Shown: positions 5,317 through 31,995 of the stretch, piece by piece
How positions within the stretch are numbered: position 1 is the first letter of the stretch
Layout of the letters: each line of letters begins with the position of its first letter
Source: Arthrobacter russicus
GTDB lineage: Bacteria > Actinomycetota > Actinomycetes > Actinomycetales > Micrococcaceae
Assembly: GCF_031454135.1 (NCBI RefSeq)
Contig: NZ_JAVDQF010000001.1
Span: forward strand, 1,984,001 to 2,048,000
DNA: 64,000 bases
Direction of reading: 5' to 3'
Notes under the pieces: generated by a model
What the model was told of the DNA's origin: nothing
Seen by the model: only the letters and a program-made list of their open reading frames with translations
The model's database searches: none
Translations under genes and position numbers: made by a program

Positions 5317-6263
5317 TAGCCCTGGCTTCCATCGCTGCTGCGGACCGCCGGGGCTGCTGCGGCGCGGACTCGGGCCGCCACTTTCGCAGCATGCAGATTG
5401 CCCACCACATCATGCACTCGGATGCCCCACACGCCCTTGCCCGCGGCAATCGCGGTGGTGGCGATGGTGGCGTGGTCCCGTTCGGTCGGTGCCGCCGCCT
5501 TGCCCGCGGTGCTCAGCAACGAACCCAGGAAACGCTTGCGGGAGGTGCCCACCAGTACCCGGTGCCCGAGCTTCCCGAGTTGCTCCAGGTTCGCCAGCAA
5601 TTCCCAATTCTGGTCCGCGGTCTTGGAAAAGCCCAGACCGGGGTCCACGATCAGCTGCTCCGGCTGAACCCCGGCCGAATAGAAGACCTGCAGTGCAGCA
5701 CCGAGCTCGGCGACCACGTCATCGATCAGATTCGCATAACGGATCAGCGAATCCATGATCTTGGCATCACCACGACGATGCATCAAAACGTAAGGCGCCT
5801 TGCGCTCGGCGACCAAGGCCACCATTTCCGGGGTCACGCTCATGCCGGAGATGTCGTTGATGATCGCCGCACCGGCGTCGAGCGCTTTGGCCGCAGTCTC
5901 GGCGTGCCGGGTGTCCACGCTGACCAGGGCGCCGGCTTTGACCATGGCTTCGATGACCGGCATGATCCGCTCCTGCTCGGTGGCCGGATCGACCTCATCG
6001 GCTCCGGGACGGGTTGATTCGCCGCCGATGTCGATCACATCGGCTCCGGCGTAGAACATCCGCAGCCCGTGCGCGATCGCGGTATCCAAGGAATTGTAGG
6101 AACCGCCGTCGCTGAACGAATCCGGAGTCACATTGAGGATGCCGAAGACCACGGCACGGTCCGTGGGCAACTTGTCGAAGCTGGCCGGTTTGCGCGGCGA
6201 GCGCAGCGTCGGCAGTGGTGATGTGGCCGGTCCGGTTCCGGGGGCGGCAGCGAGGGAGTCCAT
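5316..6263 (-). CDS. folP: Dihydropteroate synthase
   Basis: DHPS condenses hydroxymethyldihydropterin pyrophosphate with p-aminobenzoate and is the sulfonamide target. It has 315 residues. The N-terminal 30 residues are Pro/Ala-rich and probably disordered. The signature GILNVTPDSFSDGG lies near residues 41-54, and the second pterin-binding signature, with DIGGESTRPGA, lies near 77-87. The gene is 22 bp downstream of folE and overlaps folB by one base. The downstream lysine/arginine signature (GTSRKRFLG) is also intact. Confidence 0.97.
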   Translation of the reverse strand: MDSLAAAPGTGPATSPLPTLRSPRKPASFDKLPTDRAVVFGILNVTPDSFSDGGSYNSLDTAIAHGLRMFYAGADVIDIGGESTRPGADEVDPATEQERIMPVIEAMVKAGALVSVDTRHAETAAKALDAGAAIINDISGMSVTPEMVALVAERKAPYVLMHRRGDAKIMDSLIRYANLIDDVVAELGAALQVFYSAGVQPEQLIVDPGLGFSKTADQNWELLANLEQLGKLGHRVLVGTSRKRFLGSLLSTAGKAAAPTERDHATIATTAIAAGKGVWGIRVHDVVGNLHAAKVAARVRAAAAPAVRSSDGSQG

Positions 6264-6285
6264 AATTACCTTCTGTTGGATTGCG

Positions 6286-6921
6286 TCATTTGCCCAGAAT
6301 CAAGCTCATGGCTTCAGCGCGGGTTGCCGGTTCGTGCAGGATGCCGCGCACTGCCGAAGTCACCGTTTTGGCTCCGGGCTTGCGGACGCCGCGCATCGAC
6401 ATGCACATGTGTTCGCATTCGACCACGACGATCGCTCCGCGGGGCTTGAGGTGCTCCACGAGCGCATCCACGATCTGCGTGGTCAGCCGCTCCTGGACTT
6501 GCGGGCGTTTCGCGAAAACGTCGACCAGCCGGGCGAGCTTGCTCAGGCCCGTGACTTTCCCTTCCGCGGAGGGGATGTAGCCCACGTGCGCGGATCCGTG
6601 GAAGGGCACCAGATGGTGCTCACAGGTCGAGTAGAACGGAATGTCCTTGACCAGCACCAATTCCTGGTGCGAAATGTCGAAAGTCCGGGACAGGACCTGT
6701 GCCGGGTCCTGGTTCAACCCGGAAAAGACTTCGGCGTATGCCCGGGCCACCCGTTGCGGGGTTTCCGCCAGCCCGCTGCGGTCCGGATCTTCGCCGATCG
6801 CGATCAGGATCTCCCGCACCGCGGCCTCGATCCGTGGCAGATCCACGCTCGACTCGGCAGGCGGTTTCGCTTCTTCGTCGACATCACACACGAGAGAGAT
6901 CCTATCTGGAATCATCGGCAC
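6286..6921 (-). CDS. folE: GTP cyclohydrolase I
   Basis: This enzyme makes 7,8-dihydroneopterin triphosphate from GTP, the first committed step of folate synthesis. It has 211 residues from a GTG start. An ATG two codons in (6915) is an alternative and the ribosome site is weak, so the exact start is uncertain. Zinc ligands are visible as Cys100 and His103 in [10 protein letters not shown] and Cys173 in [10 protein letters not shown]. It lies 64 bp downstream of ftsH, the usual actinobacterial order. Confidence 0.96.
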
Positions 6922-6985
6922 TTCGTTCCGCGGTTACGCCCGGTCCGTTGGCCTGGGCTTGTATATCCGGGCCACCGGCAAGCCT

Positions 6986-9145
6986 TCAGCGCTCCTCTGC
7001 CGGAGCTCCGCCGTCGTGCTGCTGGCCGTTCGGACCGGAGTCATGCTGATTCGACTGCCCACCGGGGTTCGTGCCGCCAGAAGCGCCGCCGGCCGAACCC
7101 CCACCGGGGTTCCCCAGGCTGCCGCCGGTTGCCCCACCCGGCGCATCCGCGGGCCCCGGAAGGTTGGCCGAGGCCAACTGCTCCTGCGGAGTCAAGGTGT
7201 CCGGATCCGGATCACCGGCTGCCGCGGCGTCCCGGCGCTCCTTGGCGGAGACCACCGGGGGGATGTCGGAAACCGGGCGGCTGTCCGCCGAGAGCCAGAC
7301 GTCGCGCAGCTCGCGCTTGCGGATGTCATGGAAGATTTCGGCGATTTCGGCTTGGTTCAAGGTCTCGCGTTCCAGCAATTCCAGGGCCAGCCGGTCCAGC
7401 ACATCCCGATTTTCGATCAGCACCGCGTAAGCCTCGTCATGGGCTTCTTCGATCAGCCTGCGGACTTCCTCGTCGATCATCGCGGCGACCGCTTCGGAGT
7501 AATCCCGGTCCCGGCCCGCGTCGCGGCCCATGAAGGGCTCACCGCTGCCGGTGCCGAGTTTGACCGCACCGATGCGTTCGCTCATGCCGTATTCGGTCAC
7601 CATCCGGCGCGCGGTTCCGGTCGCCTTCTCGATGTCGTTCGAAGCCCCGGTCGACGGATCGTGGAAAACGATCTCCTCGGCGACCCGTCCGCCCATCGCG
7701 TAGGACATCTGGTCCAGGAGCTCATTGCGGGTGACCGAGTATTTGTCGTCTTCCGGCACCACCATGGTGTAGCCCAGCGCACGGCCGCGCGGCAGGATGG
7801 TGATCTTGGTGACCGGAGCCGAATAGCGCAATGCCGCGGCGACCAGGGCGTGTCCGCCTTCGTGGTAGGCGGTGATCTTCCGCTCGCGCTCCTTCATCAC
7901 CCGGGTGCGCTTCTGCGGGCCGGCCATCACCCGGTCGATGGCTTCGTCCAACGCTCGGTCGTCGATCAGCTGGGCATTGGAGCGTGCGGTCAGCAGCGCG
8001 GCCTCGTTGAGCACGTTCGCCAGATCCGCGCCGGTATACCCGGGGGTCTTCTTGGCCACCGCATGCAGGTCGATGCCCGGCGCCATCGGCTTGCCCTTGG
8101 CATGCACGTGCAGGATCTGTTCCCGGCCGATCCGGTCCGGCGCTTCGACTGGAATCTGCCGATCGAAGCGGCCGGGACGCAGCAGCGCCGGGTCCAGTAC
8201 ATCGGGCCGGTTGGTCGCCGCGATCAAGATCACATTGGTCTTGACGTCGAAGCCGTCCATTTCGACCAGGAGCTGGTTGAGCGTCTGCTCGCGTTCGTCG
8301 TTGCCGCCGCCGATCCCGGCACCACGGTGCCGCCCGACGGCGTCGATCTCGTCGACGAAGATGATCGCCGGCGAGTTCGCCTTGGCCTGCTCGAAGAGAT
8401 CGCGGACCCGGCTGGCACCGACGCCGACGAACATTTCCACGAAGTCCGAGCCGGAGATCGAATAGAACGGCACGCCGGCCTCGCCGGCCACCGCGCGGGC
8501 GAGCAGGGTCTTGCCGGTTCCGGGCGGTCCGTAAAGCAGCACGCCCTTGGGGATCTTCGCGCCGACCGCCTGGAATTTCTGCGGTTCGCGCAGGAACTCC
8601 TTGATCTCGTGGAGCTCCTCGACCGCCTCATCGGCACCGGCGACGTCGGCGAAGGTGACCTGCGGATTGTCTTTGGAAATCAGCTTGGCCTTGGACTTGC
8701 CGAATTGCATCACTTTCGAGCCGCCGCCCTGCATGCGGGAAAGCAGGAACCAGAAGATCGCGCCGAGGATCAGGATCGGGACGATGAGCTGCAGGAATCC
8801 GACGAAGAAGTTGTTCTGCACCGGCTGATCATCGTAATCGGCAACTTTGGCGTCATTGAGCGCGGTGATCACGGCTTGCTCGCGGGCGTCCACGACATAG
8901 AACTGGACATTCTTGCCCAGATTCTGGTTGTTTTTGGAGAAGTCTTCCTTGAGCACCAAATCGACGCGGCCCTCGGCATAGACCTTGGCCGACTGGACTT
9001 TGCCGCCGCTGATCAAGGCCATGCCGTCAGAGGTGCCCACCCGGGCAGAACCGCCGACGCCGAGCAGGGAGAATCCGATCGCTCCGATCGCGACCACGAT
9101 GATGATCCAGACGATCGGACCTTTGAGGATTTTCTTGATGTCCAT
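6986..9145 (-). CDS. ftsH: ATP-dependent zinc metalloprotease FtsH
   Basis: FtsH is a membrane-anchored AAA+ protease that degrades misfolded membrane proteins and short-lived regulators. It has 719 residues. Two membrane segments lie at about 10-30 and 112-136. Walker A GPPGTGKT is at 206-213, Walker B IIFVDEID at 261-268, and the zinc motif HEGGH at 428-432. A Gly/Pro/Asn/Gln-rich tail of about 80 residues, typical of actinobacterial FtsH, ends the protein. It is the first gene of the minus-strand fol/pan run; the promoter must lie in 9146-9491. Confidence 0.98.
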
Positions 9146-9491
9146 GTACTCCGGGGAGTGACCCCGTCCTTCCTGCTGCGTTCTTCGGCGAACCGGGTCC
9201 GTCCTTGATCTGGAATGGGCCCCATCTAGCTATACACCGTCCGCAGACATTCACGCACAACGGGCCGGCTAAGTTCCCCTCCAGGCCGCAATGTTCCCTC
9301 TCAGCAGAACGACTATTCCCGTGCGGCGGCGGCTTCCCGACCGTCGACGCCTTCGAAATTGGCTCAAGCCGGGGAAGTATCCGTGGCGTCAGCCAATTTC
9401 GACGGCGATCCCATCGCGCACCATCAAGCACTTATCCACAACTGCCGCCCAGGGCCTGGCGCGAATCGGATCCCGATGGCAGCGTCAAACC
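9146..9491. other. Divergent intergenic region between ftsH and the AbiEi-like gene
   Basis: This stretch of about 346 bases must hold the ftsH promoter on the minus strand and that of the AbiEi-like gene on the plus strand. The plus-strand frame of the AbiEi-like gene is open upstream to an ATG at 9291. The added translation is Arg-rich and unlike the family, so it is treated as non-coding. A single DnaA-box-like TTATCCACA occurs at 9432-9440. No convincing riboswitch, hairpin or operator was recognised. Confidence 0.5.
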
Positions 9492-10469
9492 ATGGACAAG
9501 CCGGTCATCTTCTACGCATCCGACGCTGCCCGCGTGGACCGAGACCCGGCCAGGTTGGCGTTTCTGGCGCAGCGCGGAGCGCTGGTCCGGATCCGGCACG
9601 GGGCCTATCTTCCGGCAGAGACCTGGACGTCGTTGAACGAATCGGAAAAATACGGGCTGCGCGCCGAAGCGCTGAGCAGGTTCACCGCATCGGCCCCGGT
9701 GTTCTGCCGCCAGTCCGCAGCAATGCTCTGGGGACTGCCGTTGATCAGGGTGCCGGAAAAGCTGCACATCGTCAACGCCTCGCCGGGACACGGCCGTTCA
9801 CGTCGCGGGATCATGGCGCACTACGGCCCACTTTGCGGCCGTGAAACCAGCATTTCCGAGTTCCGACTGACCGACAAGGCCCGAACCGCGGTGGAACTCT
9901 GCGCGCAACTGCCCTTCGCCGAAGCCCTGGGCGTCATGGACGCCGCACTGCGCGCCGAGCGGGACTCGTTTGCCGCCGGCTGGTCGGAATGGGCGCGGAC
10001 CAGTCCACGCGGACCCGCCGTCGCTCGTCCGACGCTGGAAACCCTGGCCCTGGCCTTGCCCACTCAGGCCGCCCGGCGCAGGGTGCTGAAGGTGCTTGCG
10101 CTCGCCTCGGAATACGCGGAGTCATTGGGCGAGTCGATCAGCCGGGCGCAGCTGCACCTGGCGGGGTTTCCGGCACCGTGTTTGCAGCAAGCGTTCACAC
10201 TTCCCGACGGGCGTCAGGTGCGGAGCGATTTCTTCTGGCGCGAGTTCCACCTGGTAGGCGAATTCGGCGGCAAGGAAAAGTACTTTCGCGGCGATTGGGC
10301 CAATGGCCAAACTCCCGGCGAGCGTGTGTACGCCGAAAAGCTCCGGGAAGATGGCTTGCGCGCACTCGGACTCCGGGTGGTCCGTTGGACCTGGGCGGAT
10401 GCGATCAATCCCGCTCGGCTTCGCCGCTGCCTATTGGAGTCCGGGCTGCCGCTACAGCGCACCAACTGA
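9492..10469 (+). CDS. AbiEi-like antitoxin-domain protein with DUF559/Vsr-like C-terminus
   Basis: The protein has 325 residues from the ATG at 9492. The N-terminus (about 20-90) resembles the winged-helix domain of AbiEi-type antitoxins. The C-terminal part carries a D-x(n)-E-x-x-x-K pattern (RSDFFW followed by LVGEFGGKEKY, about 240-265) and a closing EKLREDGLRALG...VVRWTW block, as in DUF559/Vsr-like PD-(D/E)XK proteins. No partner toxin (AbiEii) is adjacent. It is divergent from ftsH and followed by a strong inverted repeat. Nuclease activity is inference from the motif spacing; such proteins are common but uncharacterised in Micrococcaceae. Confidence 0.68.
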   Translation: MDKPVIFYASDAARVDRDPARLAFLAQRGALVRIRHGAYLPAETWTSLNESEKYGLRAEALSRFTASAPVFCRQSAAMLWGLPLIRVPEKLHIVNASPGHGRSRRGIMAHYGPLCGRETSISEFRLTDKARTAVELCAQLPFAEALGVMDAALRAERDSFAAGWSEWARTSPRGPAVARPTLETLALALPTQAARRRVLKVLALASEYAESLGESISRAQLHLAGFPAPCLQQAFTLPDGRQVRSDFFWREFHLVGEFGGKEKYFRGDWANGQTPGERVYAEKLREDGLRALGLRVVRWTWADAINPARLRRCLLESGLPLQRTN

Positions 10470-27171: not shown

Positions 27172-28083
27172 TCAAGTCCCGATCCGGCTGCGGTACCAGG
27201 CACGCGTGGCCGGCTCCGCCAACGAAAACGACGACGGCGGCAACCCGGAGCGATTCCAGAGCGGTGCCGCATCGAGCCAGCCGTCGACGCCGATCATGCT
27301 GACCTGGTGCCGGCTGAACCCGGCGTCGCCGAGCAGCTCCTGCGCCCGCGGCAGCGAAACCGAGCCCGACAAGCCCAGTGGACCGATCTGCGACTCGATC
27401 TGCGCCACGAGTTCGGACAATCGCACCGGTTCGGGAGCGGCTGCATGGAAGATGCCGCCGATCGGGCCTTCGGCCAGCGCCAGAGCCGCCACCAACCGGC
27501 CCAGCTCGACCGAGCTGATCAGCGAAAGCCGCGCGCTGCCATGCTCGATTTGGCTGCCCAGCCTCCGGAAAAGCTTCACCACGCCCGGGATGAACCACCG
27601 GTCCGCCGGACCGTACACCAGATAAGGGCGCAGCACGGTGCCGCCGGCGTCGAGCACCATCTGATCCGCGATCGAGCGGTGGCGGCTAATCATCGACTCC
27701 GGGTTCGCCGACTGGTCCAGAACGCCGATTCCCCGGTGCGGGCCCGAGCCGTAGACCGCTGCCGTGCTCATCTGGAGGCACCGGCTGACCCCTGCCCGGG
27801 CTGCGGCGTCCAGGAGGTTGGCGGTGCCCTGGAGGTACAGCCGCTCCGCCGCCTCGGGGTCCGATCCCAGGTAGGACGTGGCGTTCACCACAATTTCGAT
27901 TCCATCCATGGCCTCTTGTAAGCTGGCCGGGTGGTTCAAGTCGCCGATGAATTGTGAATCGTCGGACCCTGCCGACCGATTCCGCAATAGCACCCGGGGC
28001 TCCGGGGTCGTGGACGCAGACCATGCGGCCAGGATCTGACGACCGATGAAACCGGTAGAACCGATCAGCAGAATCCTCGTCAT
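27172..28083 (-). CDS. NAD(P)-dependent epimerase/reductase-like protein of the butyrolactone cassette
   Basis: The protein has 303 residues. An extended-SDR Rossmann fold has GSTGFIG at about 8-14, MSTAAVYG near 106-113 and TVLRPYLVYGP near 151-161. The usual catalytic YxxxK is not visible; the position instead reads SRHRSIAD. It is divergent from the ScbR-type regulator with 74 bp between. Streptomyces butyrolactone loci often carry a reductase of this kind acting on the ketone or butenolide intermediate, so that role is proposed here. The exact reaction is inference. Confidence 0.72.
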   Translation of the reverse strand: MTRILLIGSTGFIGRQILAAWSASTTPEPRVLLRNRSAGSDDSQFIGDLNHPASLQEAMDGIEIVVNATSYLGSDPEAAERLYLQGTANLLDAAARAGVSRCLQMSTAAVYGSGPHRGIGVLDQSANPESMISRHRSIADQMVLDAGGTVLRPYLVYGPADRWFIPGVVKLFRRLGSQIEHGSARLSLISSVELGRLVAALALAEGPIGGIFHAAAPEPVRLSELVAQIESQIGPLGLSGSVSLPRAQELLGDAGFSRHQVSMIGVDGWLDAAPLWNRSGLPPSSFSLAEPATRAWYRSRIGT

Positions 28084-28157
28084 GAACGCGGGTCTCCTCG
28101 GTAAGCGAACGGGTGCGGACTTCGCTATCCCAGCCTAATTGAACGGAAATTCATACC
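28084..28157. promoter_or_regulatory. Divergent control region of the butyrolactone cassette
   Basis: These 74 bases separate the reductase-like gene (minus) from the ScbR-type regulator (plus), so both promoters must be here. This makes it the likely autoregulatory site for the receptor. GAGGAG precedes the reductase start. I could not recognise a clear autoregulator-element palindrome by eye; only a short TGAAcggaaaTTCA dyad (28139-28152) is evident. Confidence 0.4.
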
Positions 28158-28814
28158 ATGCAAGAAAGGGCGCTGGCCACCCGCTCGCTGATTCTGCTCG
28201 GCGCGGCCCGGGTATTCAACCAGTTCGGCTTCAACGGATCCAACCTCGCCTTGGCCGCGGAAGAAGCCAAGGTGACCAAGGGCGCCGTGTATTTCCACTT
28301 TTCCTCGAAACTGGAACTGGCAAAAGCCGTGATTGCCGAGCAGCACCGGTTGGTGCAGGAGAAAATCGCCGAAAACAACCGGGATGAACAACGCGCGCTG
28401 GCCGTCATGATCGCCAGCTGCCAGGAATTCGCGAATCTGCTGCAAACCGACACCGTGGTCAAAGCCGGCATCCGGTTGACCTTCGAGGGCCCGACTTTCG
28501 GCCTCGACGTCGCGGGCCCCTACATCGACTGGATTGCGGACATGACCCAGCTTGCCCTCACCGCGAAGGAGCAGGGCGACATCAATCCCGACGTCGACGC
28601 CAAGGCCTTCGCGATGTTCCTGGTCGGTTCCTTCACCGGCGTGCAAATGGTTTCGGAAATCATTTCCGACCGCCGTGAACTCAGCAAAGAGATCAAGAAC
28701 ATGTGGTGGTCGATCGGCAATACGGTCTTTTCCGAAAAGGCCCGCAGCGACGCACGGATCAGCACACTGATCGAGGGTCCGCTCGAACCGCTCACGCCTC
28801 CGGAAATGGCGTGA
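28158..28814 (+). CDS. ScbR-type TetR autoregulator receptor
   Basis: The protein has 218 residues. The TetR helix-turn-helix spans about 10-56 and includes LALAAEEAKVTKGAVYFHFSSK in two adjoining blocks, the form typical of ScbR/ArpA/BarA receptors. The C-terminal ligand domain carries FLVGSFTGVQMVSE, also characteristic of this branch. It should repress target promoters until it binds a gamma-butyrolactone. Its 3' end overlaps the converging AfsA-like gene by 23 bases. ScbR family membership rests on these blocks and on the adjacent synthase gene. Confidence 0.83.
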   Translation: MQERALATRSLILLGAARVFNQFGFNGSNLALAAEEAKVTKGAVYFHFSSKLELAKAVIAEQHRLVQEKIAENNRDEQRALAVMIASCQEFANLLQTDTVVKAGIRLTFEGPTFGLDVAGPYIDWIADMTQLALTAKEQGDINPDVDAKAFAMFLVGSFTGVQMVSEIISDRRELSKEIKNMWWSIGNTVFSEKARSDARISTLIEGPLEPLTPPEMA

Positions 28815-29766
28815 CCACAGGATCCGGAAACTCCAGGATGAGCTGAATCCGGGCCCGGACGGTGCTGTGCACCAGCACCTCCACCGACCACGGTTGCATC
28901 CGGGGCCGGCCCTGGCCGGCATCGGTCGGCACCGCCAAAAACCGCACCGGATCCCAGAGTTCGATCGGCTGCTCGAAAGTACCGCCCATCGCGACAATCC
29001 GGCTGCGGTCGAACCCGGCCGCACGTTGCGCCGCCTGTTGCGCCGCGACGAAAAGCAGCATGCCGGGCACATGGTCCAGCGGGTGGTCGAAAAAGACCGG
29101 ATGGTGGGTATCCACCACCAAGAACGGCACCGGGCTGGAATCGTCCAGGACGGTGTTTCGCTCCGGCTGCGACGGCACCCGGGGAAGCGCCGGCCGGGGC
29201 TCGGCAGCCGCGCGCAGACTCCGCGCATTCCGGCGCAATCGCCGATAGACCCGCGGTGCGACCAGTTGCGCCACGGAACTGCCACGAGCCACCAGCTCAC
29301 CGCCGACGTAAAAGGCGCTGGCCGCGTCCAGCCTGCTCAGCAGGCCATTGCGGAAGCGGACCTCGGTCGAGACCACGACCACCACATTGGTGCTGGCAGT
29401 CTCCCGCCAACCGGCTTCGGGAACCAGTTCGAGGGACATCTCCGAAAGCAGGAATTTCTGCTCGAACGGCACCTTGAGGTACCGGTGCGCGATGCAGATG
29501 GAAATCTGCCGAATCGTTTCGGCCACCAAGTGGCCGTCGTAATATCCCGCGTATCCGTCGTAAAGCAGGTGCCACCTGGGCCATTGCACGCCGATCCCGA
29601 AGCGGTCCCGGCCGAGCCGGGTGGAATCGGTGAGGAAGACCTCGCTGAGCGAATGCCGATGGACCAAGCGGCGATCGACGGTCCGCTCGAAGCTGATCGA
29701 AGACGCCGCCCGACCGACGTCGGGAATTTCGGGGAAGGTATCTTCCTGAGCGATTGGCTGATCCAC
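28792..29766 (-). CDS. AfsA/ScbA family gamma-butyrolactone synthase
   Basis: AfsA condenses a beta-ketoacyl thioester with dihydroxyacetone phosphate, the key step of gamma-butyrolactone signal synthesis. The protein has 324 residues. Two AfsA hot-dog repeats are visible. The first has VDRRLVHRHSLSEVFLTD (about 30-47) and the second has FFDHPLDHVPGMLLFVAAQQ (about 224-243), both close to the family consensus. The GTG start at 29766 lies 9 bases after a TATACT -10-like box, so the mRNA may be leaderless. It converges with the receptor gene, unlike the divergent scbA-scbR order in Streptomyces. Confidence 0.88.
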   Translation of the reverse strand: MDQPIAQEDTFPEIPDVGRAASSISFERTVDRRLVHRHSLSEVFLTDSTRLGRDRFGIGVQWPRWHLLYDGYAGYYDGHLVAETIRQISICIAHRYLKVPFEQKFLLSEMSLELVPEAGWRETASTNVVVVVSTEVRFRNGLLSRLDAASAFYVGGELVARGSSVAQLVAPRVYRRLRRNARSLRAAAEPRPALPRVPSQPERNTVLDDSSPVPFLVVDTHHPVFFDHPLDHVPGMLLFVAAQQAAQRAAGFDRSRIVAMGGTFEQPIELWDPVRFLAVPTDAGQGRPRMQPWSVEVLVHSTVRARIQLILEFPDPVVTPFPEA

Positions 29767-29775
29767 AGTTGACCC

Positions 29776-29781
29776 AGTATA
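29776..29781 (-). promoter_or_regulatory. Candidate -10 box of the AfsA-like gene
   Basis: On the minus strand TATACT lies 9 bases before the GTG start, which would place transcription initiation at or next to the start codon. A TTAATT about 9 bases further upstream is too close to be a standard -35. The site was read by eye only. Confidence 0.4.
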
Positions 29782-29825
29782 GAGCCCAAATTAACCCCGT
29801 GGAATACGGCCCAACCGGCCGGAAA

Positions 29826-31514: not shown

Positions 31515-31983
31515 TCAGGCCGGGGTGAGATGCCGCGAGGGGACTGGACTGGAGTAGACCACGCTAGTGGTGATACCGCCCAGCGTGGCCAGGCGCCCTG
31601 CGCTCCGTTCAAGGTCGGCCATGGATCGGGCGTGGACTTTGATCATGAAGCAGTCGACGCCGGTGACATGGTGGGCTTCCACGATCTCCGGCGTCGTATC
31701 GACAAGATCGTGGAATGGCCGGTAGTTTCCGGAGGGATAGGCCAGTCGCACGAACGCGGCAACCGGGTAGCCGAGGGCTTCCGGATCGACGGTGGCGGAA
31801 AAAGCCGGTGATGATGCCGCCTTCGGTCAGCCGTCGCACACGTTCCCCGGTCGCGCTGGCCGACAAATTGATCGCCCGCGCGAGCTGCGCGGTGCTCATT
31901 CGCCCATCACGCTGCAGCTCGTCAATGATCGCTCGGTCAGTGGCATCAAGATCCAATAATTGCTTCAACGGCATACGGGCCAT
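31515..31983 (-). pseudogene. Lrp/AsnC family regulator broken by a +1 frameshift
   Basis: The N-terminal helix-turn-helix (LDATDRAIIDELQRDGRM, then STAQLARAINLSASATGERV) is in one frame from the ATG at 31983. The ligand-binding half (GYPVAAFVRLAYPSG to the stop at 31515) is in another. The frames join at a run of five A bases (five T on the coding strand) at 31799-31803. Removing one base would give a normal product of about 155 residues, GITGFSATVDPEALGYP across the join. As written, the product ends at 31609 after 124 residues. It may be a real inactivation or an assembly error. It is divergent from a rhodanese gene. Confidence 0.8.
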
Positions 31984-31995
31984 ATTTATTAACGT

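Follow-up and report, generated by a model that had tools for sequence, protein, structure and literature searches.

The three genes described here lie in a 64,000-nucleotide stretch of Arthrobacter russicus DNA (hereafter the window, G000:C1:1984001-2048000; source genome one contig, 3.82 Mb; 65.6% G+C). We conclude, with a probability of roughly 70%, that they form a gamma-butyrolactone-type autoregulator cassette, GblA-GblR-GblE, which is both derived and maintained in one Renibacterium-like species of the Micrococcaceae. Sequence and synteny lend good support to membership in the GblA-GblR-GblE group. The arrangement itself is already known, since the layout is common among the loci we compared and is described for Rhodococcus by Ceniceros et al. 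(2017; PMC5735094). What sets this copy apart is an unusual natural variant of the synthase. The locus comprises:

27172..28083, minus strand: GblE/JadW2-type NAD-epimerase-like protein, 303 amino acids (Pfam Epimerase, receptor neighbor in relatives, motif checks)
28084..28157, no strand: divergent epimerase/receptor intergenic region, 74 bases; the expected operator place, with no receptor-type palindrome seen
28158..28814, plus strand: ScbR-type TetR butyrolactone receptor, 218 amino acids (NCBIfam NF041196, match to AvaR1 in the Protein Data Bank, PDB)
28792..29766, minus strand: ScbA/AfsA-type synthase, GTG start, 324 amino acids, two hot-dog repeats (NCBIfam NF041195, Pfam AfsA)
28792..28814, no strand: tail-to-tail overlap of the synthase and receptor genes, 23 bases (open reading frame coordinates)
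29029..29091, minus strand: second-repeat motif FDHPLDHVPGMLLFVAAQQAA, residues 226-246, with Val240 and Gln243 (alignment to relatives)

All three open reading frames (ORFs) were verified at these positions, and their coordinates bear out the geometry given in the first-pass annotation: synthase and receptor converge and overlap, and the epimerase-like gene and receptor diverge. The same annotation called the receptor ScbR-type, rightly so, as it scores 177.7 bits against the ScbR equivalog model NF041196 (cutoff 150) and its best solved relative is AvaR1 (PDB, 1.5e-26), alongside other butyrolactone receptors of known structure. The protein has the recognition-helix motif TKGAVYFHF, and its Trp125 aligns opposite the ligand-pocket Trp of AvaR1. 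The predicted isoelectric point (pI) is 5.1, and an acidic pI is a criterion for butyrolactone receptors. The synthase scores 222.2 bits against the ScbA_BarX equivalog model NF041195 (cutoff 200), and Pfam AfsA (PF03756) matches it in two stretches, with a whole-protein E value of 2.6e-27. As judged from sequence, the family matches of both proteins are far beyond chance. In trees, the window synthase falls among Micrococcaceae synthases, the nearest rows being cassettes of Arthrobacter, Pseudarthrobacter and Paenarthrobacter. A phylogenetic check had been proposed; the synthase does not group with unrelated hot-dog proteins, the receptor lies nearest butyrolactone receptors, and the family assignments stand. 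A sequence search found no solved structure of the AfsA synthase family. A promoter scan called no sigma-70-like promoter in 28084-28157. Separately, a TATACT at 29767-29785 (minus strand), likewise not called by that scan, ends 9 bases upstream of the synthase GTG, a position that would be consistent with a transcript that is leaderless or has a very short leader.

The claim that the synthase has both hot-dog repeats holds in that Pfam AfsA matches twice, but the second repeat lacks two conserved residues. Where relatives read FDHPLDHVPGMLLxEAxRQA, the window synthase reads FDHPLDHVPGMLLFVAAQQA; of the 89 aligned synthases, 84 carry the second-repeat Glu and 81 the Arg. The protein does not conform to GMLLxExxRQ, a second-repeat Glu/Arg criterion that reflects near-invariance in this alignment set rather than a published definition. 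Sequencing error was considered as the source of Val240 and Gln243 and rejected, because the same residues occur in a second genome of the species. The ExxRQ of the first repeat is kept, with Glu83 and Arg86 found in 89/89 rows and Gln87 in 88/89. In distant AfsA-like proteins, the second-repeat Glu or Arg is missing in most cases examined; loss is therefore possible within the superfamily. We also observed a divergent AfsA-like subfamily in the Micrococcaceae (L161-L164, L167, L173 and L174; motifs such as FDHFSDHLPGMLLxxA) in which the second-repeat Glu is lacking in six of seven members (present in L163). The natural loss of both residues from a maintained synthase lends itself to testing which of the two AfsA repeats is the catalytic one.

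Evidence for maintenance comes from close relatives. The closest named synthase, among the best 80 of 303 relatives, is 98% identical and belongs to Renibacterium sp. RGIG571, a metagenome-assembled genome from cattle duodenum; the ortholog in the second genome of the species is 98% identical. Compared with the sister strain, the synthase has 12 synonymous and 5 nonsynonymous changes, a ratio of nonsynonymous to synonymous rates (dN/dS) of 0.143, and the corresponding values are 0.121 for the receptor (7 substitutions) and 0.088 for the epimerase (15 substitutions). A pseudogene was rejected on these grounds, the frames being open in both genomes of the species and dN/dS being 0.14. Evidence for divergence comes from a common set of 29 loci. 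The stem leading to the window pair accounts for a share of 0.110 of tree length for the synthase, 0.123 for the receptor and 0.042 for the epimerase, and among conserved positions 6/47 are changed in the receptor and 3/46 in the epimerase. Synthase and receptor have thus diverged jointly and the epimerase has not, as a changed signal would give.

The third protein had been described as a reductase-like epimerase. The epimerase part finds support in a Pfam Epimerase match (3.6e-17) and the Rossmann motif GSTGFIG. "Reductase" is unproven, because the Tyr-x-x-x-Lys dyad of short-chain dehydrogenases/reductases (SDRs), replaced by Ile/Arg in the window protein, is lost in 34/34 epimerase-like rows from cassette loci (A, T, V, I, R or L at the Tyr position, Arg at the Lys position). 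Alignment to solved SDRs agrees that these proteins are without the dyad, which suggests unusual chemistry or a non-redox role; PMC5735094 likewise states that the step catalyzed by GblE is unclear. The gene, divergent from the receptor, is its conserved neighbor in the cassettes of relatives, and two Streptomyces loci (L095, L096) hold proteins that match our local epimerase profile. The GblE/JadW2-type label is putative and follows the cassette layout described in that paper.

How might such a cassette work? By homology, and following what PMC5735094 says of the family, the synthase would join a glycerol derivative to a fatty-acid derivative, a later step would fall to the epimerase-like protein, and the TetR receptor would act as a repressor on DNA until the product binds to it. 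For the window cassette, we lean slightly toward a synthase that still makes a signal. It would probably work through its first-repeat site, where Glu83 and Arg86 are intact, and its product is possibly changed, since synthase and receptor diverged together and the epimerase did not. The receptor would then act on a nearby site of another kind, or in trans.

The genome holds two loci above the ScbR cutoff and two above the ScbA cutoff, and the other locus is a complete cassette:

L022 7537-10050 (G000:C1 1177536-1180049): second GblA-GblR-GblE cassette, same three genes, same layout, both curated cutoffs passed
L022 2-10050 and L144 13347-16350 (G000:C1 1168346-1180049): cassette 2 together with the adjoining operon

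Its convergent synthase and receptor overlap by 4 bases, and its synthase keeps the second-repeat Glu and Arg. This synthase is likewise present in the sister strain, where the receptor and the flanking operon accompany it. At conserved positions, the cassette 2 receptor is the most divergent of the 29 (13/45 changed), with 5/45 changed in the synthase and 6/47 in the epimerase. Cassette 2 is only in part a plain, ordinary copy, given 13/45 against 6/47 for the window receptor and 6/47 against 3/46 for the window epimerase. The recognition motif of its receptor is VTQGSVYFHF, compared with VTKGA-x-YFHF in the window receptor. In the trees of both synthase and receptor, cassette 2 groups with Frigoribacterium (SH-like approximate likelihood ratio support 92 and 94, respectively), a pairing that joins long branches and may be false. 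That one cassette arose from the other by recent duplication is not favored: approximately unbiased tests of a joint grouping give p values of 0.002 for the receptor (rejected), and 0.07 for the synthase and 0.23 for the epimerase (neither rejected). Separate origin is likely, not proven, the branches being long. Beside cassette 2 runs a one-direction operon with ATP-grasp, pyridoxal-phosphate aminotransferase, YCII, SDR, enolase superfamily, hydrolase, GH3 and major facilitator superfamily transporter genes. From its gene content, it resembles a small biosynthetic cluster, perhaps butyrolactone-controlled, and is a plausible target. The GH3-family gene is split into two ORFs in the window's genome (L022 4274-6010, minus strand) and is one 578-amino-acid ORF in the sister strain (L175 4777-6513, minus strand).

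Several observations weigh against a maintained, working window cassette. At the position of Val240, 82 of the 84 full-length homologs (those of the 89 aligned rows with at least 190 bits) have Glu, the exceptions being the window synthase and its ortholog L030, and at the position of Gln243, 78 of the 84 have Arg. An arginine of S. coelicolor ScbA is reportedly necessary for activity, and we assume that it occupies the position of Gln243. Among the 29 loci, the window synthase departs most often from positions conserved elsewhere (7/49, shared with its ortholog). The dN/dS estimates rest on few substitutions (17, 7 and 15), and relaxed constraint could also explain why synthase and receptor diverged together. 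No match to the ScbA model is present in 5/5 other species of the same genus. Finally, the operators of butyrolactone receptors follow a palindromic consensus of the ACCG-N6-CGGT type, and a scan with an operator-type string of 20 positions found no such palindrome at the window cassette. The best score there is 11/20, the level of random sequence; the best of 2000 random 260-base stretches of the window scores 14.

In a rival explanation that we consider unlikely, the window synthase is dead or nearly so, and the maker and sensor genes are kept for listening to the signal of cassette 2 or of another species, or are heading for loss. The loss of Glu240 and Arg243, the long synthase and receptor stems, the want of a recognized operator and the presence elsewhere in the genome of a cassette whose residues are intact are all as this explanation would have it. 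However, the frame is open in both genomes of the species with low dN/dS, and the first-repeat residues are kept. The missing palindrome says little about decay; we do not count it as such because other Micrococcaceae cassettes, such as L023 and L024 (best 9-11/20), also lack one. The first-pass annotation also proposed a self-contained circuit. The three gene kinds do stand together, but self-containment is weakened by the changes in the second repeat, by the want of a recognized operator and by the presence of a second complete cassette.

The second cassette offers a better operator candidate. Upstream of synthase 2, AAATAATCCGTTCGATCGGTTTGTTT (G000:C1:1180091-1180116) scores 18/20, a high score that is partly circular, as the operator-type string of 20 positions and the pattern were composed after this site was seen. 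Independently of the scoring string, comparison of the site with its own reverse strand shows 2 mismatches. Genome-wide, the pattern derived from this site finds it alone when up to 3 mismatches are allowed; a reversed control pattern gives 2 matches. A looser pattern, with 858 matches on both strands versus 389 for its reversed control, was discarded as too loose. Elsewhere, the regions upstream of the synthases reach a score of 15 in Paenarthrobacter L049 and Pseudarthrobacter L043, and Arthrobacter intergenic regions share a stretch containing AAGTATCCCGG, with no counterpart seen in the window.

It is tempting to combine these data into a picture of two butyrolactone-type channels, which we regard as rather improbable. 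Cassette 2, with intact residues, an operator-like site and a biosynthesis-like operon, would form one channel. The window cassette would form the other, with a single-site synthase making a different lactone and a co-evolved receptor whose target is either a novel type of operator or, in trans, the cassette 2 palindrome. A related proposal, a shared regulon in which receptor 1 would bind the palindrome upstream of synthase 2, seems a long shot. The uniqueness and score of that site fit it, as does the retention of VTKGA-x-YFHF by receptor 1 where receptor 2 has VTQGSVYFHF; but receptor 2 adjoins the site and is the simpler partner, the pattern and string were written with the site in view, the reversed control has its 2 matches, and weaker operators would be missed. 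That the synthase is an unrelated hot-dog protein and the receptor an unrelated TetR protein, each merely resembling the family, can be dismissed, as no supporting point was found, both equivalog cutoffs are passed and the three-gene synteny extends across several families.

To place the layout in context, we scanned named genomes, found 303 synthase relatives, and took the 80 that match the window best, so that shares by family are biased toward window-like loci. Layout was read with profiles of the three proteins in these 80 loci, the window and L022-L028. Counts refer to 86 of these 88 loci, those whose synthase scores 100 bits or more (L027 and L028 fall below), with a receptor threshold of 130 bits. 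Genes of relatives come from a simple custom caller with approximate start codons, and the counts are not independent events, as L024 and L041 are the same locus, L025 and L056 are the same locus, and the window and L030 belong to the same species. Synthase and receptor are convergent in 35 loci, 45 have another order, and 6 are without a receptor above 130 bits. Of the convergent loci, 30 have the epimerase divergent from the receptor by script, to which the listing adds L041 and L046; L058, L073 and L083 have no epimerase match. Synthase and receptor overlap in 11 of the 35, the window and its ortholog included, and the 23-base overlap is therefore not special. All 15 Micrococcaceae loci among the best 80 are convergent, as are 4 of 5 among L022-L028, the fifth being without a receptor. 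By contrast, 44 of 48 Streptomycetaceae loci have another order, 3 are convergent and 1 is without a receptor. The contention that the layout differs from Streptomyces is correct to this extent, but the layout is not unusual, with 35/86 loci convergent and a 2017 precedent in Rhodococcus (PMC5735094). The three-gene layout occurs in Arthrobacter, Pseudarthrobacter, Paenarthrobacter, Frigoribacterium, Micromonospora, Lentzea, Amycolatopsis and others.

Within the Micrococcaceae, the window synthase as query matches 26/395 genomes at E<=0.001 (9/32 genera), 16 of them at 100 bits or more. Butyrolactone-type cassettes are a patchy feature of this family. The curated ScbA model matches 8/148 genomes, 4 above cutoff. 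We found no study devoted to the Micrococcaceae cassettes in the open-licence literature; predicted Micrococcaceae butyrolactone clusters may well be already reported. In another Micrococcaceae genome (L026, ~5480-10034), an AfsA-like gene of 170.6 bits, below the ScbA cutoff, lies beside ketosynthase-like and acyl-carrier-like genes recognized by eye, and this stretch has no receptor above 130 bits.

The window cassette is accessory. Housekeeping genes surround it, namely the gene for the DNA polymerase III alpha subunit and folate, serS and pheA genes, the latter three recognized by eye. In G004 and G005, a CDF gene and a GntR gene are separated by other genes; in G003, a permease gene directly follows a phosphoglucomutase gene; and in G001, gene order is changed. 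Nearby, at 31515-31995 (minus strand) of the window, an Lrp/AsnC-like regulator frame, named by eye, is interrupted, and the sister strain has an open 127-amino-acid frame (L137 2325-2708).

Finally, we compare the window cassette with known systems, relying for the experimental work on PMC5735094. There, gblE-gblR-gblA is described in Rhodococcus, including R. jostii RHA1; R. jostii gblA is required for the butyrolactone 6-dehydro SCB2; and JadW2, an epimerase/dehydratase homolog of GblE, is essential for butyrolactone in S. venezuelae. The window cassette resembles Rhodococcus gblA-gblR-gblE in having the same three gene kinds outside Streptomyces and, like most Rhodococcus clusters, a central receptor opposite to both neighbors. 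S. coelicolor scbA-scbR and S. venezuelae jadW1-jadW2-jadR2, compared by name (Table 1 of that paper), belong to the same synthase and receptor families, whereas Streptomycetaceae loci mostly have another gene order. In Rhodococcus loci L073 and L083, where no neighboring epimerase was found, the synthases retain Glu and Arg in the second repeat, unlike the window synthase. Cassettes of Arthrobacter, Pseudarthrobacter and Paenarthrobacter (L031-L041, L043, L049, L056) are laid out as in the window, and their synthases are 30-40% identical to that of the window (nine aligned); all 14 retain the Glu and Arg that the window synthase lacks in its second repeat. Moreover, unlike R. jostii RHA1, which has a single gblA according to PMC5735094, the window's genome has two copies.

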